A DNA stretch of 64,000 bases from Synechococcus sp. CC9616. GTDB taxonomy: Bacteria; Cyanobacteriota; Cyanobacteriia; PCC-6307; Cyanobiaceae. Position 1 is the stretch's first letter; the number at the start of each line of letters is the position of its first letter. Both the position numbers and the translations under genes were made by a program. The notes under the pieces are model-generated. The model did no database searches, was not told the DNA's origin, and saw only the letters and a list, made by a program, of their open reading frames with translations. The stretch covers positions 649,490 through 713,489 of the forward strand of contig NZ_KI911558.1 in the NCBI RefSeq assembly GCF_000515235.1, written 5' to 3'. Positions 16,456 to 28,377 of this stretch are shown here, one piece after another.

Positions 16456-17634
16456 ATGACCAGCTCGCCCGCCACGATCGGAGTTGTGGGAGGAGGCCAA
16501 CTGGCCCGGATGCTTGTTCAAGCCGCATCAGAGAGGCAGATCGCCGTGTCTGTTCAGACGGGCGCTGCTGATGACCCAGCCGTTGATGGTGCGTCGCGTC
16601 TGATCAGTGCGGATCCGCGTGATGTGGCGGGTACGCGGCAGCTTGTCGAGGGCTGTGACGGCATCACATTCGAAAACGAATGGGTGAACATCGATGCTCT
16701 GATCCCTTTGGAACTGCAGGGAGTTCGTTTCCGTCCTGCATTGGCGGCTCTATCGCCGCTGGTGGACAAGCTTCTTCAGCGGCAGTTGCTGGCAGACCTC
16801 TGTATCGCCTGCCCACCCTGGATTCCACTCAGTCGCATCTCTCCGTCTCAGCCTGCGCTGCCGACGGGATGGACCTTCCCTGTGATGGCCAAGGCTGCAC
16901 GCGGCGGTTACGACGGCAAAGGGACGCTGATTCTCAAGTCCGTGGATGATTTGGCCCAGTTAATGCGCCGTGTCAACGCAAGTGAGTGGCTGCTTGAAGC
17001 CTGGGTGCACTACGAGCGGGAATTGGCCCTGGTGGTGAGCCGGGATGGCCAGGGACGCGTCAGAAGTTTTCCCCTCGTTGAAACTCACCAATCCAGTCAG
17101 GTCTGCGACTGGGTTCTGGCTCCAGCCGCGGTTGATCAATCAATTGAAGCGCTCGCTTACAACGTGGCGGCCTCACTCCTCACCAAGTTGAACTACGTCG
17201 GTGTGATGGCCCTCGAGTTCTTCCATGGCCCCTCGGGACTGCAGGTGAACGAAATCGCTCCTCGCACTCACAATTCGGGCCATTTTTCTATTGATGCCTG
17301 CAGCAGCAGTCAGTTCGATCAGCAGCTCTGCATCGTGGCCGGCTTGCCGGTGCCATCGGTCCAGCTCACCAGTCGTGGTGCACTGATGGTAAATCTGCTC
17401 GGGTTGGATCCTGATCAAGCCGCTCCCCTCGAGCAGCGACTCAGCAGCCTGCAAAATCTCCCGGAAAGCCATCTGCACTGGTACCAGAAACCAAGCGAAA
17501 CCCCAGGACGAAAGCTGGGTCATGTCACGGTTCTGCTCAGGGAGCAGACGGCAGCAAAGCGTCGAGATGAAGCAATGGCTGCTCTAGAGGTGATTCGTCG
17601 AATCTGGCCATTGCAAGTAGAAGAAGACGACTAA
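16456..17634 (+). CDS. purK: N5-carboxyaminoimidazole ribonucleotide synthase PurK
   Basis: A 392-residue ATP-grasp enzyme of purine synthesis that carboxylates AIR to N5-CAIR with bicarbonate and ATP. Motifs: IGVVGGGQLARMLVQAA at the start, GITFENEWVNIDAL, VMAKAARGGYDGKG (ATP-grasp loop), EFFHGPSGLQVNEIAPRTHN with metal ligands, and HNSGHFSIDACSSSQFDQ. Length is normal. The structured RNA at 17641 begins only 6 bases after the stop; purK next to 6S RNA is, as I recall, a common arrangement in cyanobacteria. Confidence 0.95.
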   Translation: MTSSPATIGVVGGGQLARMLVQAASERQIAVSVQTGAADDPAVDGASRLISADPRDVAGTRQLVEGCDGITFENEWVNIDALIPLELQGVRFRPALAALSPLVDKLLQRQLLADLCIACPPWIPLSRISPSQPALPTGWTFPVMAKAARGGYDGKGTLILKSVDDLAQLMRRVNASEWLLEAWVHYERELALVVSRDGQGRVRSFPLVETHQSSQVCDWVLAPAAVDQSIEALAYNVAASLLTKLNYVGVMALEFFHGPSGLQVNEIAPRTHNSGHFSIDACSSSQFDQQLCIVAGLPVPSVQLTSRGALMVNLLGLDPDQAAPLEQRLSSLQNLPESHLHWYQKPSETPGRKLGHVTVLLREQTAAKRRDEAMAALEVIRRIWPLQVEEDD

Positions 17635-17640
17635 GATTTC

Positions 17641-17825
17641 CATGAACTGCTCTGTTGGTGACGGCCTTTCTCTAGTGCTCTGATCTGACTCTCTTTCGAC
17701 TTGGGGAGACTGTCGTGACGGTGACGTAGACCGGCCATGCAGCCGGAAACGAAACCCCACTTTGTCCCCCCTTCTGGTTCTTCCAGGTCGAAGCCTGGAG
17801 GCTGCACGGCACAGCGGTTCACCCC
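17641..17825 (+). ncRNA. ssaA: Probable 6S RNA
   Basis: About 185 nt, the normal 6S length, directly downstream of purK. The two ends pair: TGAACTGCT (17643-17651) with AGCGGTTCA (17813-17821, one G-U pair), continued by CTG with CAG-type pairs, which forms the closing stem. Inside are further hairpins: CCAGG/CCTGG (17783-17798), CCGGC/GCCGG (17731-17746 region) and a TGGGG/CCCCA pairing, leaving an open middle as in 6S. 6S RNA mimics an open promoter and binds sigma-factor RNA polymerase. The call rests on position, length and the closing stem; no covariance search was possible. Its 3' end is the repeat used by the adjoining element. Confidence 0.6.
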
Positions 17826-17826
17826 A
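17804..17826 (+). repeat. Left attachment repeat (attL core), in the 6S RNA 3' end
   Basis: The 23 bases from GCACGGCACAG to CACCCCA are identical at 28355-28377, as direct repeats. The upstream bases also match partly (AGGTCG at 17785-17790 and 28336-28341, same spacing). Together with the recombinase gene next to the right copy, this marks the ends of an integrated element of about 10.5 kb. The repeat contains the 3' strand of the 6S closing stem, so integration leaves 6S complete. Confidence 0.75.
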
Positions 17827-18579
17827 ATGATTGCATGGGTTCTCAGCGGTTCAGTTGAGGCCCGGTTCCAACAACTGGTTGCAACACATCAGGATTGGTG
17901 ATGTCTTGATGATCTGTATCGCGTGACCGATATGTGTGAAATGTAGGCAGGTGATGTGACAGCTGGGAACTGGCACACAGCTATGTCGACCATCAGTAGC
18001 TCATCCTCTGTGTCTGTTGGAACCATCCCAGTGTCCTCAAGGGAAGAACTGTTGGAACCAGCTACGAAGCCAGGTAATCAGGGTCAATAACTGGCGCAAC
18101 GTCAGCTACAGCAGGTGTTCTCCTGTGTTGCTGGTGTTGTCCCGCTCCGCTCACTACGTTCACTCCGCTCTGTCTCTTCAGTGTTGTCACTGCTTCACAG
18201 ACTGTGCGTCTGTATTGCTCTGTGACCGACCAAGGTCGCCCTGTATGACCGCTGTATTGGCCTGTATCAAGCGGCAGCAGTGCTGACTATCTGACCAGCT
18301 GACAGCAGGTAAGGCGTGACAAAGGCGACAGCAGCAGTGGCTGGTAAGCAATGACATACCCCACCCCTACCCCTATCAATCATCAACACAATGTCTGACC
18401 GCTGGCGCTGGCGCAGCAGATAAAACAACAGGCGCAGCAAAATAATCAGACAGCAGGCAAAGAAGGCATCAATAAGGCCACTTCCTGCAGCTCTCTGGCT
18501 GGCAAAGACACCCCCCCCTGGGGGTCTGTTGTGTCCCTGCTACTACGATAATAGACTTAACAAATTTATTTCATTTTTT
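17827..18579. other. Left non-coding end of the element
   Basis: About 750 bases with no convincing gene; an 89-codon open frame at 18017-18286 has no protein-like features. It holds three copies of the putative arm site (17864-17872, 18016-18025, 18051-18060). A strong hairpin at about 18506-18527 (AGAC, C-run, G-run, TCT) lies 50 bases before the next gene. The remainder is repetitive GT/CT-rich sequence that I cannot interpret. Confidence 0.5.
17864..18060. promoter_or_regulatory. Putative recombinase arm-type sites, left side
   Basis: GGTTCCAAC at 17864-17872 and the reverse complement GTTGGAACCA at 18016-18025 and 18051-18060. The same 10-mer occurs twice at the right end of the element (28249-28258 and 28262-28271) beside the recombinase gene. 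Clustering near both ends, in both orientations, suggests binding by the recombinase N-terminal arm domain. Confidence 0.5.
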
Positions 18580-18921
18580 ATGAGGTCACTACTCAGAACT
18601 ATTCCATTAATTGGTGCACTGCTCATCTCAGCAGTTCCAGTTCAGGCTTTTCCTTTTTTAACATTTGAGGAAGTAGAGAAAGCTTGTCATGCTTCAGAAG
18701 AAAACACTAATTTGTGCGTAAGTGTTGCTGAAATGAGTGCTATGAGGAGGATGGTGATTTTGCTTTGTAACTTTGAAGCGAAAGGCAGGATTACAAAAGA
18801 GGATTTAGATTTGACTTTGGATGAATGGACCTTTAATCAGAGTATGAGTATGATCCCACTGTTGAATAAAGCAGTAGAGATGACATTAAAAGAATTCCCA
18901 GAATGTTCACTTAATCCTTAG
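18580..18921 (+). CDS. Small secreted protein, unknown
   Basis: A 113-residue protein with a clear signal peptide (MRSLLRTIPLIGALLISAVP, cleavage after VQA). The mature part, about 90 residues, has four cysteines (ACHAS, NLCVS, LLCNF, PECSL) that could form two disulfides, and a helical middle. No family recognised. Codon use is AT-rich like the rest of the element. A GT/CT hairpin after the stop (TTGTAG/CTACAA, about 18921-18952) may end the transcript. Confidence 0.6.
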   Translation: MRSLLRTIPLIGALLISAVPVQAFPFLTFEEVEKACHASEENTNLCVSVAEMSAMRRMVILLCNFEAKGRITKEDLDLTLDEWTFNQSMSMIPLLNKAVEMTLKEFPECSLNP

Positions 18922-19015
18922 TTGTAGGGTCCAGCAAAAAGGCTCTACAACGAGCGATCAATGCATGCCTGATAGATTGCCTAATGTGAACATTAAGCCT
19001 GCCACAGAGCATTGA

Positions 19016-19144
19016 TCATCCAGCTTCCGGTGCCCAACCCATTGTTTTCTGCCAGGTGGGTGCCCAGAGCTTGCACTTCTTGGTGAGGTGATCGCCTTGA
19101 GCTAGTTGGTTCTGGCGGATGGTGCAGCCTAGAAGCGAGTGGCA
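19016..19144 (-). pseudogene. Relic of a small Cys-containing protein (copy A)
   Basis: The frame is open for 42 codons and lacks any standard start. It ends with KKCKLWAPTWQ followed by a short tail. The same peptide occurs on the same strand at 22747-22857. The two DNA copies differ mostly at third codon positions (AAA/AAG, CTT/CTC, GCG/GCA, CCG/CCC), which is the sign of past selection on the protein. Copy A looks truncated at its start. Confidence 0.4.
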
Positions 19145-19168
19145 TCAAGGTATTGCATTGACTTGTAA

Positions 19169-20773
19169 CTATATGGTGACAGGCGGATACATCGTGAACG
19201 ACTCGTCGATAATTGTTTTACCCAGTAAGGTAACATTAGCTGACAAATCACCTTCTATGGTGGTAACAATATTGCCATTACTTGCATTCAGTTTAATATA
19301 ATTATCTAGATCAAAAGTCATAGTAGCTAAATCATTGCCACCTATAAAAGGAATTCGTGAAGGGATTTTAATTGTTCCATCTGCTTCAGCAAAAGGATTT
19401 ACAGTTACGCCAATGGCACTGAAATCACGTGCATTTGTCTCAAATCCTGTAATATCAACTGTAGGCTTGATATCAGGACTAGTAGTGTAAAATTTACCAC
19501 CAATTACATCCAAGGATGCGGAAGGACTGAATTCAGCATTGGCATTAAACAATTGACCACTGACAGGATCACCACTAGAAGAGAATGCAGTAACATTACC
19601 TTTAATGCCTGTGTTTACGGACAATTGGCCAAAATCAGTAGTAATAGAATCGCTAGGGCCGGGAAAAATAATTGTTCGCATCGCATTAATTTTTCCCGCT
19701 GAAATATTTCCACTGAAATCAGTAGTGAGGGTTGATTTAATATCAGGTATATAATTGTGATTGGCAGCAGCAGAGGTTAGTCCACCACCAAAGTCGATTG
19801 AACCTTCAAGGCGTGGAGTTATCGTTAAATCAGCAGAGATAGGAAATTTTCTACCCGTAAGAGTAATATCTTCCCAAGTGTAACTAAAAGGCAAAGCAGT
19901 CGATGAAGTTCCATGATTAAATTGATTAACGGATTTCTTTACCTTTTGCCAGGCTGCACTTGATGTAGCAGTAAATCCTCCATTATTAGAAAAAATATTA
20001 GTTATAAATGGGATAGGTGGTGTTGGTGTTGGTGTTGGTGTTGGTGGAGGGAATTGAATAGGAGCGGGTAAAGGGGCAGGGGCAGGAGCAGGAGCAGGAG
20101 CAGGGGAGGGGGAAGGGTTATTGGAAGGACAACCAACCACTGGAAGGCAGAATGAGAATGAGAGCGGTCCTCGTTCAAACTGATTATCACCAGATTCAAA
20201 GCTTCGATAACTACGAGAATCTGATTCTAGCTTTTGACCTGAATCATAGTTTTTTGCTTGATAAAGCCAACGTTTTTTACTATTAGGATCAAGCTTGAGG
20301 TGATTTGAAACTGAACTGAAACCGTGCGCAGTTTTCAACAAGTCTTCATTTTGTTTTAGAAATCCATAATCATGAAGCTTGGCTGATGCAACAATCTTCC
20401 CATTTTTATTGAATCTTAAACTCTTATACTGGAATAGCAAATGGGTCTGACCATCAATACCAATTGCACTTCCATATACAGGCTCCTCAGATGTATATCG
20501 ATCCCAATTATTAATCAATTGACTTGAAGAGACAGAGCCCTTAGTGCCATCTGCGTGGGTCCAGTTGTGTTTTGTTCTTTTGTCGGCACTACTAATAACC
20601 TTAAAATGACCAGGCTTTATTTGATTAAAAGTAAGCTTAGGCCTGCGTAGGTTAAGTCCAAAAATATAGCTGGGGTCGTCATTGCTGGCAAAATGTTTCT
20701 GAAGAGCCACAATTGCATAACAAATACCACTATAGCTTAAACAATGCGAAAGTCCATAGAACCAAGGCAGCAT
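19169..20773 (-). CDS. Large putative surface protein with Pro-rich linker
   Basis: A 534-residue protein. The first 25 residues (LSYSGICYAIVALQ) could be a weak signal or anchor. Residues about 30-215 are a polar domain with many Lys and Ser; residues about 222-255 are a low-complexity linker of PAPAPAPAPAP followed by PTPTPTPT; residues about 265-534 form a beta-rich domain with repeating Asp/Asn/Thr/Gly strands, as in extracellular proteins. I recognise no family. The linker is encoded by short DNA repeats, so its length may vary between strains. Transcribed in the same direction as the polymerase and recombinase. Confidence 0.6.
   Translation of the reverse strand: MLPWFYGLSHCLSYSGICYAIVALQKHFASNDDPSYIFGLNLRRPKLTFNQIKPGHFKVISSADKRTKHNWTHADGTKGSVSSSQLINNWDRYTSEEPVYGSAIGIDGQTHLLFQYKSLRFNKNGKIVASAKLHDYGFLKQNEDLLKTAHGFSSVSNHLKLDPNSKKRWLYQAKNYDSGQKLESDSRSYRSFESGDNQFERGPLSFSFCLPVVGCPSNNPSPSPAPAPAPAPAPLPAPIQFPPPTPTPTPTPPIPFITNIFSNNGGFTATSSAAWQKVKKSVNQFNHGTSSTALPFSYTWEDITLTGRKFPISADLTITPRLEGSIDFGGGLTSAAANHNYIPDIKSTLTTDFSGNISAGKINAMRTIIFPGPSDSITTDFGQLSVNTGIKGNVTAFSSSGDPVSGQLFNANAEFSPSASLDVIGGKFYTTSPDIKPTVDITGFETNARDFSAIGVTVNPFAEADGTIKIPSRIPFIGGNDLATMTFDLDNYIKLNASNGNIVTTIEGDLSANVTLLGKTIIDESFTMYPPVTI
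20016..20108. repeat. Short tandem repeats coding the Pro-rich linker
   Basis: Two arrays on the plus strand: GGTGTT units at about 20016-20047 and GGAGCA/GGGGCA units at about 20072-20108. They encode Pro-Thr and Pro-Ala repeats on the minus strand. Six-base units keep the frame when copies are gained or lost. Confidence 0.8.
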
Positions 20774-20817
20774 ATATCTTCAGAGTAGGACACAAAAGGA
20801 AACAGAGATTGATGCAT

Positions 20818-21042
20818 TCAGTACTGCCTCACTTCTATCCATCCCATTGTCAGTAAGCAGCTCAAGGCGTGTGCTGATATAAGCCAATCCAGCAGTTGCA
20901 TGGTTTCTTTGAGTTGCTCCTCTGTAGGGCGGACGTGGCCACTAACCACAGCACTCATCCCTGGAATACTGTGCCTCGTGATCTCCCAAAGGAAGAACGG
21001 GATCACACGGGTGTCCAGCTCGGTATTGATCCAGCGGTTCAC
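20818..21042 (-). pseudogene. Degraded tyrosine recombinase C-terminus
   Basis: A 74-codon frame whose middle, WEITRHSIPGMSAVVSGHVR, closely matches the intact recombinase at 26992-28248 (YEITRHSIPGMSEVVSGYVR). Only about the last 60 residues remain, and the catalytic Tyr (GYV) is His (GHV) here. It starts immediately after the stop codon of the gene at 21043-21924 and in the same frame. It is best read as the remains of an older element of the same family, possibly fused to its neighbour by deletion. Confidence 0.7.
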
Positions 21043-21924
21043 CTACTTCTGTAAGTCTGATGAGTGACTCGTGAGTTCAGTCATGCAGTTGAGCGTCTCA
21101 GACATTGATGCTTGAAACCTTCTAATGGCTGCACACTCACCTAATGCTGCCCAATCAACGGATTGAGCAAGCACCGTGAATCGTTCAACCATCTCAGCAT
21201 TATTGATCTGATCAAGCTCACCATCTGTTGGTAGGGGGCTTGGTTCAGTGTGTTGCTCAGAACAAGTCTTCAAAGACTGGTTTTGATGTATTTGCTGAAG
21301 TTCCTTTGATTGTTCCTGTGGTGTCTCTGGAAAGGTGGCGGCATCACTGCTTGGCATCTCCTGCTTCGGATATGAACGACGGATCTGCTCCAGCCTTCTG
21401 ACAGAGATGCTTTGTTGACCAGCACTAAAGTCGAAATCTGGATATGACACTTCTTCCTGAACTACTCGATAGCCTTGAGAACTCATTCTGCTGAGCTCGT
21501 ATTTGTGAGACGGGGATAGTTTCTCAAACCATTGAAGCTCGTCCTTGCCGGAGAATCGACTAGTTAACCAATCCGCAGTAGAGACTAGTTTATGAGAATT
21601 ATTTTTAGAAAAACCAAGTCGTTCAATCGTCTGTTGTGCTTGCTTTCTTAGTACCTTTGACTTATACCCGTAGCGGTTGTCTTCATTAAATCGATGATTG
21701 TTGTCTAGGTAAGCAGCTTCTTTGAAGACAGCAACGGCAAAATCTAGGCCTTGCTTTGAATAGCCTTTCTGTAACTGCTTAATATGAGTGTGGAATTCAA
21801 TCAATTCCTTGATCGTCTGATCTGTTAGCTGATTCCGAATCCTTTCGAGACTGTCGTTAAAACGATGGTCTGGTTCACCTGCTTTATCAACAGGAAGCAT
21901 TAGTGTGTAATTCAATTGATTCAT
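21043..21924 (-). CDS. Unknown soluble protein of the element
   Basis: About 293 residues starting MNQLNYTLMLPV. It is mostly helical and charged. The first half has Lys/Arg/Gln-rich helices (IKQLQKGYSKQ, VLRKQAQQTIERLGF), the second half a Pro/Ser/Gln-rich linker (about residues 205-245) and a helical end. No enzyme motif is seen; a DNA-binding or regulatory role is only a guess, based on the palindrome at its start. An upstream ATG at 21966 would read through that palindrome, so I prefer the ATG at 21924. The frame runs in register into the recombinase relic after a TAG. Confidence 0.5.
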   Translation of the reverse strand: MNQLNYTLMLPVDKAGEPDHRFNDSLERIRNQLTDQTIKELIEFHTHIKQLQKGYSKQGLDFAVAVFKEAAYLDNNHRFNEDNRYGYKSKVLRKQAQQTIERLGFSKNNSHKLVSTADWLTSRFSGKDELQWFEKLSPSHKYELSRMSSQGYRVVQEEVSYPDFDFSAGQQSISVRRLEQIRRSYPKQEMPSSDAATFPETPQEQSKELQQIHQNQSLKTCSEQHTEPSPLPTDGELDQINNAEMVERFTVLAQSVDWAALGECAAIRRFQASMSETLNCMTELTSHSSDLQK

Positions 21925-21932
21925 TATTTTTA

Positions 21933-21946
21933 TCCACACGTGTGGA
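21933..21946. promoter_or_regulatory. Perfect 14-bp palindrome, putative operator
   Basis: TCCACACGTGTGGA is a perfect palindrome 8 bases before the ATG at 21924 on the minus strand. Its length and position fit the binding site of a dimeric repressor controlling the gene that follows. No second copy was noticed in the element. Confidence 0.45.
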
Positions 21947-22365
21947 CTTTCTATTGGATCACCCACTTGCCGGTGGCTTGTCCTAGTAAATGGGTAGGTA
22001 TAGGAATCATCTGGATGTCAGAAGGCATGTTTCCGCGCCAGCTCCGCTGGTGCTAGGCCTCTTTTACATCCTGATGTCACATCATCTTGGAGTGGTCTGC
22101 TGTGCCGCTATTCCATCACGTCACGCAAAGGGTCAAATTCTTGGATCTACCTGAGCTGCTGGTCTTTCTCAGTTCCTTGGCTTCTGACTTGCTAACCGCG
22201 AGTTACTCCGTTAAGGCATTCACAGCGGCCAATTTCTTTAGGCACGATTCCAAACGTGCTTTGGAGAATTGCTTTCTTCTCTACTATTAGTGTCCATTTA
22301 AGCGTAGTCCATTGCAGGACAGTGGATTACAGGGAAAACAAGTAAGGTTATTGCTAGATACACAA

Positions 22366-22530
22366 ATGATTGCAAAAGAAATAAGGAATGCAATAAGAAG
22401 AGTCAACGCCAAGCCCAACCCCTGCGCTCACTGTGGTGAACAATGCCCCGACCATCGGGGAACCTACTGCTCAGTCAAGTGCCGGGTGGCGGCCCATCGC
22501 AAGCGGAAGCGGGAGGCTGCGTCTGTGTAA
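22366..22530 (+). CDS. Small Cys/His zinc-finger-like protein
   Basis: A 54-residue basic protein starting MIAKEIRNAIRRVNAK. It has four cysteines and nearby histidines in the pattern CAHCGEQCPDHRGTYCSVKCRVAAHRKR, as in short zinc-binding fingers, and ends in a basic run. The second CxxxC in YCSVKCR resembles the DUF2256 protein at 32645 (YCSDRCR). It may bind nucleic acid. The frame is open 18 codons further upstream (to 22312). A GCCCG/CGGGC hairpin follows the stop (22545-22558). Confidence 0.55.
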   Translation: MIAKEIRNAIRRVNAKPNPCAHCGEQCPDHRGTYCSVKCRVAAHRKRKREAASV

Positions 22531-22878
22531 CGGCCTGCTGATTTGCCCGAAGGCGGGCCAACTGGTCAGCTGTTACAACCTCAAATAACAGACGCACAGG
22601 CGGATGACAGCAATGGTCAACTCTTGTCTTCGGCCCCTTGCCTCACCCCCGTGCAGCTGAGTTGGATCGTTTGCTGTCGCTGGAGTCCGACGTTGACGAT
22701 CTGAATGGTGACGATCCCAAGCCAGACGTCTCCTGACTAACCAGCCTCAGGAGCCCAGCACATCCCTCTGCCAGGTCGGCGCCCAAAGTTTGCACCGCTT
22801 CTTGAGGTGCTGTCTCTGTTGCAGCTGCTTGCAGTGAGGCTGGTGTCTATTAATCAAAGAGCAGGTGCAACGAATTAT
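22531..22878. other. Intergenic region in the element with two possible small frames
   Basis: It holds a hairpin at 22545-22558 after the finger gene, a possible 32-codon frame on the plus strand (TTG 22638 to TGA 22736, acidic, ending DDPKPDVS), and the small minus-strand frame listed separately (22747-22857). The acidic frame has protein-like composition but no support beyond that. Confidence 0.35.
22747..22857 (-). CDS. Possible 36-residue Cys-containing peptide (copy B)
   Basis: A short frame from TTG 22857 to TGA 22747, rich in Gln, Lys and Arg, with HCKQLQQRQHLKKRCKLW and the conserved end KLWAPTWQ. It shares this end with the relic at 19016-19144, with mainly synonymous DNA differences. 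Two Cys and two His could bind a metal. No family is recognised; the real start is uncertain. Confidence 0.4.
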   Translation of the reverse strand: MINRHQPHCKQLQQRQHLKKRCKLWAPTWQRDVLGS

Positions 22879-23739
22879 TTATGCTTCCAAGGCTATAACT
22901 CTGCCTGTCAAATTTTCAATCAATAACAGCAGATCTAGATTGGAATCGGTGTTGTATGTAGACGAGATGCTATTCTCTAATCCAGCGAGCCTGTCATAGA
23001 TGCCAGAAAGTTCAGTATAGATACTTTGCGTATCCTTGTAGTTGCGATTAAGGTAGTAATTGATGCCAGCATCCTTATTGGATGATGGAGTTATTGGATC
23101 AAGCTTCACGGCATCTTCAAGAGTTGAGATGCTGTTTTTCAAACCAGTTATCACATCAGAGTCAACAACACCAGAATCACCATTGTCTACTTTACTTAAC
23201 GACTTAATTTCATCCTCCAGAGAAGAAATACGATTTGTCAGTTTTATGATTTTCTGATCTGAATTATTGCTGTTTCCGTTTGAACCCTTGCCGTCGAGGC
23301 TATTCTGGATAGATTCGAGATACACGTCAAATTCATCAAGACGCCTTTTATTTTTATTTATTAGCTTAGTATAAGTCGAATCTAATTCCGGTCCGTTCTT
23401 ATTGCCTTTGGTTGATTTCCCAATCGTCTTATCCAAAGCATCAACAAGAGCCTTGTGCTCATCAACCTGCTTCTCTAATGCTAGAAAAGAAGTTTTGATA
23501 TCTTTTGTTTTTTGGTCAAGACTTTGAATGCCACACGCAATGGTCGTGAAAGGGTTACCTTTACGCGAATCTTTTCTTAAATCATGCTCGGATAATCTTG
23601 GTACCGATTCAAGATTTCTACAGTTTGGTATTCCAAAAAAATGATATGGATATTTATTAGGCTTGCGAACAAACATAAAATTTGTTTCAACCCAATTCGA
23701 CGTACCTTTATTAGAATTTTTGATTGAATTTTTAGACAT
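22879..23739 (-). CDS. Coiled-coil protein of the element, unknown
   Basis: About 286 residues starting MSKNSIKNSNKG. From residue about 75 on it is a series of heptad-like helices (LEKQVDEHKALVDALDKTI, KLTNRISSLEDEIKSLS, GLKNSISTLEDAVKL, YDRLAGLENSISS) separated by Gly/Asn/Ser-rich breaks. Such repeats are common in phage fibre or structural proteins and in filament proteins; I cannot choose. The N-terminal part is basic. It lies downstream of the RNA polymerase gene on the same strand. An ATG at 23775 is also possible. Confidence 0.5.
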   Translation of the reverse strand: MSKNSIKNSNKGTSNWVETNFMFVRKPNKYPYHFFGIPNCRNLESVPRLSEHDLRKDSRKGNPFTTIACGIQSLDQKTKDIKTSFLALEKQVDEHKALVDALDKTIGKSTKGNKNGPELDSTYTKLINKNKRRLDEFDVYLESIQNSLDGKGSNGNSNNSDQKIIKLTNRISSLEDEIKSLSKVDNGDSGVVDSDVITGLKNSISTLEDAVKLDPITPSSNKDAGINYYLNRNYKDTQSIYTELSGIYDRLAGLENSISSTYNTDSNLDLLLLIENLTGRVIALEA

Positions 23740-24096
23740 GAGAGAAAGGTGAGCAACCCATCTCTTTATAGCCACTAATTAAAGAATATGCAACAAATAA
23801 AAAGACACTCCAACATTGCAGTTGGACGTGGTGCTTACAAAGGGAAGAGAGAACCCATTCGTGACAGTCTGAACTCTATGTATCAATCACAAACATATGT
23901 AGTCTGCTAGCTAACGTGCTCTATACGGTGCCTGTGTGGTTCTGTATGAAGCGATAGGTAGGTGTTAGGTAGTATGATATCAATTGATTTTTAGAGACGG
24001 CTTATTCGTCCAGCCGAAATTATTTACTCTGATCAAGATGATAGTTCTAACATGAACTTAATATTTAAGCATATGATTTGACATGACAATGAAAAA
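23740..24096. other. AT-rich spacer after the RNA polymerase gene
   Basis: About 350 bases without a gene, strongly AT-rich from 23960 on. A CGGCT/AGCCG hairpin at about 24000-24018 could slow or end transcription coming from the polymerase gene, but it has no T-run. Nothing else recognisable. Confidence 0.4.
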
Positions 24097-26547
24097 TCAA
24101 TTAAACATATAATTGGATTCAATTATTGTTTCTAGGTCTTGACCTAGACTTTCGGGCCTTTCTAAAGACATTTTGTCTATTCCAAAGTCATCTGCTAGCC
24201 GACCAAGCGGATCACCATCACATACCTCTACAAAGCTTTTCCGTAGGCGCTCATGAGCATCTTCCATGTCGGCTGGAAGTACTGCTATGCAATCGTGAAT
24301 TGTACTTAACGGTCTCTGCCAGTTATGGAATGCTGCTTTTAAGACTGCAGCATCGTATGAATGTACAAATTGAGGACTCAGACTAGTCTTTAACTTTGAG
24401 ATGTTTGGAAGCTTTAGGTTTCCCAGCCCAATGCTGACTTTGCCAAGAAAGTGGGTTTCGACTCTTATTGCATCAGCTGGTTGGTACTCGACGTGCTGAA
24501 TGCTGTCAGCAGTGGGTGTGGACCAAGTATGGGACGTTGCACCTTGCTCTAGAGCCATCTCTGCAAGTTTCTCAATCCAAGCAAGCGTCTCAAAAGCTGC
24601 TGGAAATACCTTTTTACTGGCCTTTCGCAGTAAATCTGTCAAAACCTTTGTGTCTTTATAAGCAACCGGATTCGGATAAAGCCCTTCCTTGGTCAAAGCC
24701 ATAATGATGTCCTGACGGTTAGTCCTGTAGGAACCTCCGTAAATAGCCACCATCAAGACAGGCTTTCCAAGACTCCGGTGGATTAGGTGCTCTGACAGCC
24801 ATGCAGTCTCTCGATCAGCCTCAGCCAGCTCTCGTGCCACACGAAGCACTTCTAGGTATGCGTCCTTTGGTGGAGCATCTGGTTCCTTTTGAGGTGTCAG
24901 GTTGCTGAACTCCATCCCCTTTGGATCACGCCTCATGGCGCTCAGTAACTGCAAGCCAGAGGCTGTGGCGTCAGCCGTAACGGGTACATGCCAAAGCGTT
25001 TGCTGCTTCCTCAGTACGACCTTCACCCACTCAATAGCTAATTGAAGGAACTGCCATGGATCGTCAGCCTGTTCCCATTGAGTTGCTGTACCGATCGGGT
25101 TATCTGCAATGGCCTCCAGCAGCTGTGAGTGTGATCTCGTCCACCGAGATCGTTCATTGAAGGTTCCCCTACTACCCAAGAACGCTGCTCCAACAGCTTG
25201 AGCTGCTAACTCTTCCGATCGCTCATTTAGTAGGCAGCCTTCTGCAAATCGCGATAGGGACTTCTCCAAGTCCGACTTCTGTCTCCCTAACCAAGCCTGC
25301 TGGTCGTAGAGGCGTCCTCTGAAATCACATTCCCAGCTCAGATAAAAGTGTGGTTCCTTGGAAAACTGCCTAGCCATGGACAGTACAGACATCGTTGAAC
25401 GGGCTCTTTCAACCTGCTCATGGTGAGCTTCGTGAATGGAGTGTTGAAGCTTTCTCCAGGCAACTCGTTCTGCATCTTCTTTCGGCAGGTTTTTGATGTG
25501 TTCAGGCATTACCTGAGCCCTTCGAGGATCGTTTGTAACTGCCCTGAAACTTCCAACTGATATGTCTTTAACCCAGCACGCTTCAACGACCTTCAAGACC
25601 TCCTGGTCGATGCACCAGGCAGTGCGTTGAAGTGTATTGAGTAGGTCAATTGCTACTTGCCCAAACTGGCTATCGGAATGCATCCCCTTTCTTCCACCAC
25701 AAAGCGGATGGACCTGCCTAAGCAGAGGGGAGTGATAGCCGCCGGAGATGTTTTTCCTTGATGGCTGATCTTGAAGTTTCCAATCCAGTGGTGGCTCTAC
25801 TAGAGGCCAAGACAAATACGACCAGGAATCAATGTTGGACCTTGCATGCTCAAGCCACTGAGCAACAGCTGGTGATGGCAGCAGAACGTTCTCTGTCTTG
25901 TTCCTTGCCATCCGTTTTGGAGTTCGAGTGAACCATCCCGCTTGAACGGCTGCCTCAATCAGGAAAAGCCCAATCCCAGTACGTACTTCTGATGCCCACG
26001 TCGGAAATAGATCATCCTGTGCCCAGCCCTTATCAAGCAGTTGTTTTTCAACTGACAACTTGATGCCTAAATGCTTGTGACGAGGCGATGAGTTTTTCTT
26101 TTTTTGCTTGGCATCGACAAGCCGTTCAGTATCTTTGCCGCCAAGTTCAATGTAGTAATTTATTCTTGCTTCACTCTCAAGTATACGGCCAATTGTCGTG
26201 GCGACTTCAACTAGTTGGTTGTTCCCGGTATCGATACAATCGATCATCTTTTTCATCGCGCAATAAGCCACATACTCAACGCCAAGCTCTTCTGTTAGAT
26301 CGTGAGTGTGAATGGCGAAGTGACCCCATTTACTCGCCTTCCCCTGCATTACTATTTGCAATCGATCATTTAATGCTTCTGAGTACGGCAAAAACAAGTT
26401 TAGGAACAGCTGACGACCTTCAGTTGTTCCTGATATATATGATTTTTCTTTAGCCTGCTGAAGATCTCGTCTTCGCTTTTTAACAGCTTCTCTATGGGAC
26501 TGTTCTTCTAGTTTGAGCTGTCGTGAATTCATGTTATCAATTCCCAA
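24097..26547 (-). CDS. Phage-type single-subunit DNA-directed RNA polymerase
   Basis: An 816-residue protein, the size range of T7-like and cyanopodovirus RNA polymerases. All core motifs are present: WECDFRGRLYDQ (DxxGR, about residue 405), VTADATASGLQLLSAM (motif A with the catalytic Asp, about 523), KPVLMVAIYGGSYRTNRQDI (motif B with Lys, Tyr and Gly, about 595-612) and STIHDCIAVLPADME (motif C with the second catalytic Asp, about 749). The N-terminal 300 residues, which bind the promoter in T7, are helical and divergent. The frame is intact, so it may be active. In T7-like phages this enzyme transcribes phage genes from its own short promoters. Start could also be ATG 26532. Confidence 0.93.
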   Translation of the reverse strand: MGIDNMNSRQLKLEEQSHREAVKKRRRDLQQAKEKSYISGTTEGRQLFLNLFLPYSEALNDRLQIVMQGKASKWGHFAIHTHDLTEELGVEYVAYCAMKKMIDCIDTGNNQLVEVATTIGRILESEARINYYIELGGKDTERLVDAKQKKKNSSPRHKHLGIKLSVEKQLLDKGWAQDDLFPTWASEVRTGIGLFLIEAAVQAGWFTRTPKRMARNKTENVLLPSPAVAQWLEHARSNIDSWSYLSWPLVEPPLDWKLQDQPSRKNISGGYHSPLLRQVHPLCGGRKGMHSDSQFGQVAIDLLNTLQRTAWCIDQEVLKVVEACWVKDISVGSFRAVTNDPRRAQVMPEHIKNLPKEDAERVAWRKLQHSIHEAHHEQVERARSTMSVLSMARQFSKEPHFYLSWECDFRGRLYDQQAWLGRQKSDLEKSLSRFAEGCLLNERSEELAAQAVGAAFLGSRGTFNERSRWTRSHSQLLEAIADNPIGTATQWEQADDPWQFLQLAIEWVKVVLRKQQTLWHVPVTADATASGLQLLSAMRRDPKGMEFSNLTPQKEPDAPPKDAYLEVLRVARELAEADRETAWLSEHLIHRSLGKPVLMVAIYGGSYRTNRQDIIMALTKEGLYPNPVAYKDTKVLTDLLRKASKKVFPAAFETLAWIEKLAEMALEQGATSHTWSTPTADSIQHVEYQPADAIRVETHFLGKVSIGLGNLKLPNISKLKTSLSPQFVHSYDAAVLKAAFHNWQRPLSTIHDCIAVLPADMEDAHERLRKSFVEVCDGDPLGRLADDFGIDKMSLERPESLGQDLETIIESNYMFN

Positions 26548-26665
26548 GGCTCCAACTTTTTTTATTTTTTAGATCTTTCTCATTCTCATTGATTTGATTC
26601 GTTCCAAGGCCTATCAAAAAGGCGACAGTGAGTACAAGGGTTGGTGTCAAGATTGGATTCTGCAT
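26537..26665 (-). CDS. Possible small membrane peptide before the polymerase gene
   Basis: A 42-residue frame starting MQNPILTPTLVLTVAFLIGL, one membrane helix followed by a charged tail (NENEKDLKNKKSW). Its end overlaps the polymerase start by 11 bases, which would suit translational coupling. No ribosome-binding site is obvious, and the evidence is only composition and position. Confidence 0.35.
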   Translation of the reverse strand: MQNPILTPTLVLTVAFLIGLGTNQINENEKDLKNKKSWSLGN

Positions 26666-26991
26666 ATGAATTGAGTCTGATTTAGCAAACAGGCATAGCC
26701 ATCCCCCATTCGTGTCGTGTCTAGGGCTCTCCACTAGCCAAATCGGGTGATGGCAGGGTGGTTGTCAGTGAAGAAACGCCATTGATTGAATGGAAAAATC
26801 CTGATGTTTTACCTTTATTGAATTTGTTGTATTTGGGTGTGGTCAAATAAGGCATGAATATTTAGTTGTTATGTTGAAGTATGTTGCAATGATAGAATAG
26901 CTGATACCACTATCGTGCATCTGTATTGCTTGTGTTTGTTGAGTGTCAGTAAGTTTCATTCAATGTGTGGTTGCGTATGTTGGTTAATTAG
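26666..26991. other. AT-rich spacer between recombinase and polymerase genes
   Basis: About 325 bases, AT-rich, without a convincing gene. It should hold the promoter of the polymerase gene, which is transcribed leftward. I could not point to a clear -10/-35 pair or phage-type promoter. Confidence 0.4.
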
Positions 26992-28248
26992 CTATCCAAG
27001 TATCTCAACAACAGACCTAAGTTCATCAGTTGTAGGTCTTACGTAACCGCTGACAACCTCTGACATACCAGGGATTGAGTGCCTTGTGATTTCATACAAG
27101 ACAAACGGAGACACCCTTTCATTCATCAGACGTGTCACTACATAGCTTCTGAGGTTGTGTGAGCTGAACCCATAGCGGTCAGTAAATCTCTCTGCCCATC
27201 GCACAGCCCAACTCTCAAGAGCAGTTTTGTAGTCATCCCATATCCAGTCGGTGCTGTTGTTGGTGAATGCTTCGGGCAGCATCAACTCAAGCTTGCTCAT
27301 CAACAGTTTGTTAATTGGAACAACTCTTTCGTCCTTTGCTTTGCCCTTTAATCTCCTCACCCTTCCATCAGCTTCCCAGTTGACATAACTAATGGTGCGT
27401 CTGTTGGTGTCAATGTCACACCACCTCAACCCACCGTGTCCTGACTTTCGGCAACCCTGCGTTATCTGTATCCAGAACTGAATGTCGTTCAGCTCATCAG
27501 CCTTGTCACGAGCTGCCTGCATCTGCTCCAGAGGTATGGCTTCCTTCTTCTCGGAGGTTGCCAGCTTCCTAGTCAGACCTTCCCAAATGTTCACAGTTAC
27601 CTCACCGTTGTCCCTTGCCCAGTTCCAAAAGGCCTTCAGACAGTTGATGGAAGTTCTTACTGACTGGTGAGCGCTCTTCTGCAGCAACACAGCTTTGTAT
27701 TGCACTGCCTGTTGCTTTGTCATCCCTCCCAGGTATTCACTGCCAAGCCATTCAGACAACAGCTTCAGACGGCTCTTCCAGTTTGCGTATGTGCTTGCAG
27801 CTGGTAACTCCTCAACCCTTCTCCTCTCCATCCACTGCAGATAGGACGAGATGCCCTTCTCAGCAGCCTTCAGGCGTGCCTCAAGGGCTGGGACCTCTGC
27901 AACCTCAAGACCCTGCTCACGGACAGCCTCAGCGCCATAAACAAGCGTGTTGTATTCAGCCTCACTGTGGCCTGCTGCCCTCATATTCCTTTCCAGCTCA
28001 TCAAAGAAGGCTGGTTCGTCTGGCCTCACTTGTTTGAAGGTCTTTCCAATCGGGTCAACAGACGCAGCCTCCCTTAACCGTTGCTCTATCTGCAGCAACA
28101 GTTCAGGTCGGTTCCTCAGTGCCTCTGCTCTTGTGTTCCCTGCCTTCTTGACAATCTTGCTGGACTTGATGGCACCTCTCAGTGCACGTGGCACTGCAAC
28201 AATCAGGTAATACCCCGCTCTGCCTTTTATTTGCGTCAGTTTTGTCAC
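26992..28248 (-). CDS. int: Tyrosine recombinase (integrase) of the element
   Basis: About 418 residues. The N-terminus (KLTQIKGRAGYYLIVAVPRA) is an arm-binding domain, the middle (about 130-230: KSRLKLLSEWLGSEYL, SINCLKAFWNWARDNGEV) a core-binding SAM-like domain. The catalytic domain has GCRKSGHGGLRWCDID (Arg), a beta-hairpin Lys in LKGKAKDERVVPI, HNLRSYVV (HxxR), RHSIPGMSEV (His) and SGYVRP (nucleophile Tyr). All active-site residues are present, so it is probably functional. I chose GTG 28248; ATG 28296 would put the two arm-like 10-mers inside the gene instead of directly before it. It adjoins the right attachment repeat. Confidence 0.9.
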   Translation of the reverse strand: MTKLTQIKGRAGYYLIVAVPRALRGAIKSSKIVKKAGNTRAEALRNRPELLLQIEQRLREAASVDPIGKTFKQVRPDEPAFFDELERNMRAAGHSEAEYNTLVYGAEAVREQGLEVAEVPALEARLKAAEKGISSYLQWMERRRVEELPAASTYANWKSRLKLLSEWLGSEYLGGMTKQQAVQYKAVLLQKSAHQSVRTSINCLKAFWNWARDNGEVTVNIWEGLTRKLATSEKKEAIPLEQMQAARDKADELNDIQFWIQITQGCRKSGHGGLRWCDIDTNRRTISYVNWEADGRVRRLKGKAKDERVVPINKLLMSKLELMLPEAFTNNSTDWIWDDYKTALESWAVRWAERFTDRYGFSSHNLRSYVVTRLMNERVSPFVLYEITRHSIPGMSEVVSGYVRPTTDELRSVVEILG

Positions 28249-28271
28249 TGGTTCCAACGGGTGGTTCCAAC
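28249..28271. promoter_or_regulatory. Putative recombinase arm-type sites, right side
   Basis: Two direct copies of TGGTTCCAAC at 28249-28258 and 28262-28271, spaced 13 bases centre to centre, directly upstream of the GTG start of the recombinase. They match the copies near the left end. They could serve both in recombination and in autoregulation of the recombinase gene. Confidence 0.5.
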
Positions 28272-28354
28272 AACCTACCTTCAAAACCACTGACATACCA
28301 GCTGGTCTGCCTTCTCAGCCTCTTATGGTTTTATCAGGTCGATCACCGGGGCTC

Positions 28355-28377
28355 GCACGGCACAGCGGTTCACCCCA
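28355..28377 (+). repeat. Right attachment repeat (attR core)
   Basis: Exact copy of the 23 bases at 17804-17826. Upstream bases 28336-28354 match the 6S RNA only partly, as expected if this side derives from the element's own attachment site. The host chromosome resumes to the right with a small secreted-protein gene. Confidence 0.75.

Follow-up and report, generated by a model that had tools for sequence, protein, structure and literature searches.

An interesting question raised by the analysed stretch of DNA (64,000 nucleotides of Synechococcus sp. CC9616, contig NZ_KI911558.1; hereafter the window) is whether a mobile element could use the gene for 6S RNA, the RNA that controls the main RNA polymerase of the cell, as its landing site. 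An initial sequence-only reading suggested that an integrative element of about 10.5 kb is inserted at the 3' end of a 6S RNA gene, that it is bounded by an exact 23-bp direct repeat, and that the RNA stays intact after integration. Here, we examined this locus and its counterparts in related genomes (denoted by G and a number). The observation was confirmed and is wider than first proposed, although the position of the crossover had to be revised.

The 6S RNA gene and the boundaries of the element

A search of the whole window with Rfam models revealed a single match at gathering threshold, which was 6S RNA (RF00013) at 17641-17824 on the plus strand, covering the full model (1-187) with 97.9 bits against a threshold of 46.4 bits. 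It lies just after purK (16456-17634), whose product contains PurK domains. The exact 23-bp repeat is located at 17804-17826 and 28355-28377 (both +), and no other copy was found in the window at up to 3 mismatches (0.00 in shuffled sequences). A 22-bp part of it, also with 3 mismatches, has only these two places in the 2,645,910-bp single-contig genome. The right copy is embedded in a longer but imperfect copy of the 6S 3' end (63 bases at 81% identity in one comparison, about 64 columns in another). A tyrosine integrase of 434 aa is encoded next to it at 26992-28296 on the minus strand (PF00589, 4.6e-8, above the curated cut-off; PHROG integrase, 1.3e-27). R283, K317, H380 and R383 are invariant and H406 is nearly so among ten relatives; these are likely to be the catalytic residues, with Y418, placed by eye, as the probable tyrosine. 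In addition, GC content is 43-48% in the five 2-kb intervals from 18000 to 27999, against 57-61% in the three intervals to the left and 51-57% in the three to the right. The initially proposed coordinates are right to within a base or two.

We then looked for the empty site in ten genomes of the genus, four of which contained it. In G162, one alignment of 358 columns runs across the virtual junction, and in G112, G147 and G089 alignments of 182-191 columns cross the core (see below) and end 33-42 bp beyond it. On the other hand, the remaining six genomes have 1-3.7 kb of other DNA at this position, including the nearest relative, G186 (2.2 kb). The best local match of this extra DNA to the 6S tail scored 21-29, against 21-24 in genomes without an insert, so no clear 6S repeat is present there.

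The position of the inferred crossover and the origin of the 6S tail

The sequence-only reading placed the boundary in the exact 23-bp repeat, in which case the 6S RNA would be wholly the host's own and the attP of the element would merely carry a longer 6S fragment on the other side. Several observations are in favour of this possibility: the longest exact repeat is there; the left tail pairs well with the 5' strand of the host (-72.8 kcal/mol against -65.3 kcal/mol for the virtual empty-site RNA), which could be read as co-evolution; and the 6S tails of two genomes of the genus (G347 and G314) share part of the left tail. However, most evidence suggests that the crossover is just upstream, in CAGGTCG(A), with the inferred core CAGGTCGA at 17784-17791 (+; attL, the 6S side) and at 28335-28342 (+; attR, the integrase side). 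Measured core to core, the element is 17784-28334, or 10,551 bp.

First, of 29 other 6S tails of the genus, 27 resemble the right-hand copy, none the left, and 2 (G347 and G314) tie. G186, the nearest relative by the purK region (85% against at most 73% for the other 28), is among the 27, whereas G347 and G314 are only 72-73% alike in that region, although G347 also shares an unusual base of the 5' strand of the window. Second, the left tail was found in no other of 34 genomes of the genus at 3 mismatches. Third, when a common 6S-tail pattern was searched in 201 genomes, this genome was hit only at the right end of the element (genome position 677824) and not in the 6S gene, while G156, whose tails are identical over that pattern, showed two hits. 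Fourth, the 6S RNA matches those of genus relatives at up to 98% only over about nt 2-151. Finally, in all 8 complete pairs of 6S and second tail (G000, G156, G086, G092, G165, G198, G023 and G326) the shared block runs from CAGGTCG to the 3' end of 6S, which selection would hardly maintain if the crossover were at the 3' end; in some pairs, however, identity runs several bases further left (7 in G165), and there the edge is less sharp. A crossover in the 23-bp repeat is therefore unlikely. The 6S RNA is therefore a hybrid, with nt 1-151 from the host and nt 152-184 (17792-17824, +) supplied by the element, whereas the native 3' end, a relic of the host's attB, now lies at 28343-28377 (+).

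Repeats that look like integrase arm sites were also found. The motif GGTTCCAAC has five copies in the window, against 0.47 expected. Two putative arm sites are on the P side at 28250-28258 and 28263-28271 (both +; -85 and -72 from the core), one is on the P' side at 17864-17872 (+), and two further, inverted copies are near the 6S end at 18016-18024 and 18051-18059 (both -). Arm-like repeats spaced 12-13 bp, at -66 to -97 from the core, are present in 9 of 10 elements tested, the exception being G198, and they sit evenly about CAGGTCG. In 7 of the 8 elements with both ends, 5-14 8-mers are shared between the two ends, against 0.03-0.22 in shuffles of single bases.

Based on these sequence comparisons, our preferred explanation (probability about 0.92) is an integrative element that uses the 3' part of the 6S RNA gene as attB. 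We infer that the integrase recombines the core inside 6S (nt 144-151) with the same core in a circular attP, which would carry arm-type repeats about 66-97 bp to the P side and about 60-140 bp to the P' side, as well as its own copy of the 6S 3' end on the P' side. Integration would then cut the host's last ~33 nt off the RNA and move them to the far end of the element, while the element's copy re-forms a complete, and presumably working, 6S. No terminator was found after the hybrid 6S by a simple scan.

Related integrases and content of the element

The use of 6S is not restricted to this genome. Among 400 genomes of the family, we identified 14 loci of this integrase clade, of which 8 have 6S plus a second 6S tail at the integrase end, 2 (G145 and G389) show only that tail, 1 ends at a contig edge and 3 are not at 6S. 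The same tail is also present at the integrase end in the decayed pair of G211. These elements are distributed in several genera, Prochlorococcus and Synechococcus among them. The clade integrases share 100/100 support against other integrases of the family. However, the three exceptions (G101, G169 and a second copy in G156) have no 6S tail in the 0.65-1.55 kb of sequence beyond their start, so the clade is not strictly 6S-bound, and on the tree the 6S label needs 4 changes. It is also possible in principle that the repeats arose from ordinary duplication or homologous recombination between 6S fragments, with the integrase as a bystander, since repeats of this length can recombine and other DNA also occurs downstream of 6S in the six genomes mentioned above. 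Considering that related integrases lie at the same end with the same orientation and the same core in 10 loci, with arm-like repeats at similar distances in most, this is very unlikely.

Among 291 genomes of the class, strong members of the integrase clade (E <= 1e-40) were found only in G000 and G101, both of the same family. A scan of genome contigs with the single integrase sequence found nothing, although an alignment-based scan gave five named loci. In viral contigs, the integrase gave no hit, the RNA polymerase described below gave one distant hit at 25%, and a 6S-tail pattern, which covers only part of the tail variety, gave none, so there is no sign here of packaged copies.

Besides the integrase, the element encodes a single-subunit T7-like RNA polymerase of 816 aa (24097-26547, -), which was supported by PF00940 (4.4e-41), phrog_414 (4.7e-152, residues 8-815) and the T7 RNAP chain (5.7e-33). 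What are probably motifs A and C line up with T7 RNAP, and motif B could be recognised by eye only. We could not see any repeated motif that would indicate a series of T7- or SP6-like promoters in the element. ORFs of 130 aa (18529-18921, +) and 534 aa (19169-20773, -) have no Pfam or PHROG match at E 0.01. An ORF of 298 aa (22879-23775, -), perhaps a coiled coil, has only Pfam matches under cut-off. An ORF of 307 aa (21043-21966, -) has no Pfam hit over cut-off and only weak hits in a profile search of solved structures (E 0.022 and 0.21), but relatives of it occur in other islands that carry the RNA polymerase or a clade integrase. In addition, a fragment of a second integrase C-terminus is present at 20890-21036 (-; 55% to residues 384-433), and a non-coding block at 21978-22300 (-) is conserved with the RNA-polymerase island of G075 (84% over 331 columns; 2 of 201 genomes); this block matched no Rfam family and showed no unusual fold (z -0.77).

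Because the element supplies the end of the RNA, an integration can alter a global transcription regulator. One speculative and rather doubtful possibility is that, by replacing the 3' end, these elements rewrite the RNA that silences the main RNA polymerase of the host, which, together with their own phage-type RNA polymerase (here and in the element of G156, probably Synechococcus sp. UW140), would let them shift host transcription while their own genes are read independently.

Comparison with known systems

Attachment in tRNA genes is well known, and the element resembles tRNA-targeting islands in having a tyrosine integrase at one end, an attP that restores the 3' end of an RNA gene and a repeat block that runs from the crossover inside the gene to its 3' end, as is probably also the case for such islands (Williams 2002). 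The difference is the target. The TIGER/Islander survey of ~1.75 million islands lists tRNA/tmRNA, protein-coding and intergenic sites only (PMC12424338), among which a 6S site would presumably fall under intergenic, and no earlier report of such a site was found in the papers that we could search. 6S RNA is added to the RNA genes that serve as landing sites, as a recurrent and mappable insertion site across several genera of one picocyanobacterial family, with decayed copies in further genomes. Surveys restricted to tRNA/tmRNA would miss it. The core and arm sites could also become an integration tool for these cyanobacteria.

The presence of a T7-like RNA polymerase raises the possibility of a decayed T7-like prophage or phage remnant that happened to use 6S as attachment site. 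The enzyme belongs to the same protein family as the polymerases of cyanopodoviruses over the full length, but the best phage records show only 26-28% identity (20 best rows of 2566 records), while relatives with 38-74% identity are present in 10 other cellular genomes of the family, several beside integrases. The integrase has no tblastn match in 50,697 phage records, and among the six element ORFs scanned with PHROGs only integrase and RNA polymerase families were recognised, with no capsid, portal or terminase gene. Moreover, of the other genomes with a 6S-site element, G086, G109, G092, G165, G198, G023 and G145 have no polymerase match at all (G326 and G389 were not in that sample). A phage remnant is therefore improbable. 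As no capsid or conjugation gene was recognised, we infer that transfer probably needs a helper phage or other vehicle.

Tycheposons of Prochlorococcus are also tyrosine-recombinase cargo elements in the same bacterial family, and the element fits their size range (4-200 kb) as described second-hand (PMC10872708). However, according to the same source they are bordered by one of seven tRNA genes, and ARAGORN found no tRNA in the 64-kb window. Finally, PICMI are likewise small and integrase-bearing, with no capsid genes recognised. Their markers are int, alpA and prim, with fis as an optional marker (PMC10803314), whereas the families recognised here, among ORFs of at least 80 aa scanned with Pfam and PHROGs, are integrase and RNA polymerase.

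Gene content of the element

The region examined lies in one closed genome of 2,645,910 bases (G000). The 6S RNA, the 23-bp repeat and the integrase were all confirmed at the places assigned to them by the sequence-only reading. The GC content of the five 2-kb windows from 18000 to 27999 is 43-48%, against 57-61% in the three windows to the left and 51-57% in the three windows to the right. No tRNA or tmRNA gene was found in the window. The element encodes a 434-aa tyrosine integrase, an 816-aa T7-like RNA polymerase, and ORFs of 307, 298, 534 and 130 aa without a family match over cut-off. In addition, a 147-bp C-terminal fragment of a second integrase of the same clade is present at 20890-21036 (-), a sign of an older element or a mosaic. 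A 43-nt imperfect repeat (81%) was also noticed at 19048-19090 and 22767-22809, beyond the 3' ends of two element genes. The host is inferred to be a picocyanobacterium from the names of family members.

Distribution of the integrase clade and its insertion sites

To examine whether the same site is used elsewhere, we searched 201 genomes of the family with the integrase and with the Rfam 6S model (181 of 201 have 6S), and then 400 genomes with an alignment of ten integrases. A distinct group of 14 loci in 13 genomes (numbered with G below) scored at least 247 bits, whereas the next best scored 164. Of these 14 loci, 8 have the 6S gene and a second 6S tail at the integrase end, namely G000, G156 (contig 14), G086, G092, G165, G198, G023 and G326. 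Two (G145 and G389) show the tail at the integrase end but no 6S in the stretch examined. G109 has 6S on the same contig about 4.3 kb from the integrase, and the contig ends 45 bases beyond the integrase. The remaining three (G101, G169 and a second copy in G156) show no 6S tail in the 0.65-1.55 kb examined beyond the integrase start. In the locus of G101 (L106, about 18 kb to the end), arm-like repeats place the core, by eye, near the start of an apparently exonuclease III-like ORF, so the clade may have retargeted.

Measured core to core by subtraction of positions, the eight run from about 6.3 kb (G165) to about 40.4 kb (G023). The integrases of G165 (two frames) and G326 (partial) look broken, and that of G023 seems to lose its frame at the C-terminus, as judged by eye from the alignment. 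Integrase remnants also follow 6S in G336, G211 and G003, while a fourth remnant, in G282, had no 6S in the 14 kb examined. Moreover, in loci of the g56 genomes (L017-L023 and L025), a 716-724-aa open frame about 42-47 kb downstream of 6S (50 kb in G086) shares the integrase's N-terminal residues ~15-79.

We reconstructed a maximum-likelihood tree, in which 13 clade integrases (G165 left out) group together with 100/100 support against 10 other family integrases. The 6S label needs 4 changes on this tree against 7.8 in shuffles, so 6S looks like the common target with some retargeting. Among 291 genomes of the class, the strong clade (E <= 1e-40) appeared only in G000 and G101, both of this family.

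Empty sites were also observed. Of 10 genus genomes whose 6S region was compared, 4 (G162, G147, G112 and G089) run from 6S into the window's right flank without an insert, and in G162 one alignment covers 358 columns across the joined flanks. The other 6 (loci L074, L077 and L080-L083) hold about 1-3.7 kb of other DNA directly after 6S without a clear 6S-tail repeat, so the spot is variable beyond this clade.

Position of the crossover and arm-like repeats

The sequence-only reading had taken the exact 23-bp repeat at the 3' end of the RNA as the boundary of the element. Here, comparison of the two ends indicated a different crossover. In each complete pair the shared block runs from CAGGTCG to the 6S 3' end. 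To the left of it the integrase-side copy is the element's own sequence, apart from a stretch of varying similarity (identity runs 7 bases further left in G165, and 0-3 bases in most others). In this window the two tails differ, which lets them be assigned. Of 29 other genus 6S tails (30 of 34 genomes have a 6S match), 27 are closer to the right-hand tail over the 18 nt after CAGGTCGA, none to the left-hand one, and 2 tie. The two ties (G347 and G314) share part of the left tail, but their purK regions are only 72-73% alike the window's, whereas the one near relative, G186 (85%), has a right-type tail. The left tail is in no other of 34 genus genomes at 3 mismatches. On the other hand, the 30 nt before CAGGTCGA behave the opposite way, being closer to the left copy in all 10 genomes compared.

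A pattern for the common tail, searched with 3 mismatches in 201 genomes, hit 35 of them. In this genome its only hit is at the right end of the element and not in the 6S gene, while G156, with two like tails, shows two hits, and in G145 the hit is the integrase-side tail. Thus, the host's native tail has been moved 10,551 bp away and the working 6S carries the element's version. The hybrid is predicted to fold at least as well as the virtual native RNA (-72.8 against -65.3 kcal/mol), and its Rfam score, 97.9, lies within the genus range of 91.5-104 bits. By eye, the window's 6S has C in GCTxTGTT of the 5' closing strand (within 17641-17690), which makes a mismatch in the closing stem, and of 29 genus relatives only G347 (locus L160) shares it.

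Close to the core, most elements have their own short repeated word, spaced 12-13 bp, between -66 and -97 on the integrase side. This was observed in 9 of 10 elements tested (the decayed pair of G211 counted), with G198 as the exception. The same words appear about 60-140 bp to the other side in 7 of the 8 tested elements with both ends. G198 shares one 8-mer between its ends, which was not counted, and shuffles of single bases give 0.03-0.22. In this window the word is GGTTCCAAC, with 5 copies in 64 kb, all within 280 bp of a core, against 0.47 expected. The placement of these repeats on both sides of CAGGTCG, and not of the 3' end, is independent support for the core, although that they bind the integrase is only inferred from known tyrosine integrases.

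The T7-like RNA polymerase and comparison with known elements

The RNA polymerase matches T7-like polymerases end to end. However, the best phage records show only 26-28% identity, whereas 10 other genomes of the family hold relatives at 38-74%, one of them partial (19 of 201 have some match). Islands in other picocyanobacteria (loci L110, L111, L112, L113, L114 and L117) pair such a polymerase with a different tyrosine integrase. In G075, G089, G129, G079 and G056 the polymerase lies next to such an integrase, and in G115 one lies about 5 kb away. The Pfam integrase score is over its cut-off in two of these six (G079 and G056) and just under it in four. Relatives of the 307-aa protein lie downstream of the polymerase in G075, G129, G079 and G056. 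So polymerase plus this unknown protein looks like a module that travels with several integrase types. Among 6S elements, only G000 and G156 were seen to carry it; G086, G109, G092, G165, G198, G023 and G145 have no polymerase match in the genome, and G326 and G389 were not in that sample.

A non-coding block of about 330 bp at 21978-22300 (-) is 84% identical to one in the RNA-polymerase island of G075 (L110, 5270-5597), upstream of a gene whose protein is only 22% identical. This block is present in 2 of 201 family genomes, has no Rfam match, and its fold is not unusual.

With regard to previous studies, none of the passages that we examined in papers mentioning both 6S RNA and integrase describes an element in a 6S gene, although prior mention elsewhere could not be excluded. 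The TIGER/Islander note (PMC12424338) has no 6S class, and a related integrase paper mentions neither 6S RNA nor ssrS. Overall, the observation made in the sequence-only reading, an integrative element at a 6S RNA gene, is confirmed and its interpretation is supported, with the crossover moved and the finding generalised to an integrase clade. The kind of element is already known, and it is the target that is new.
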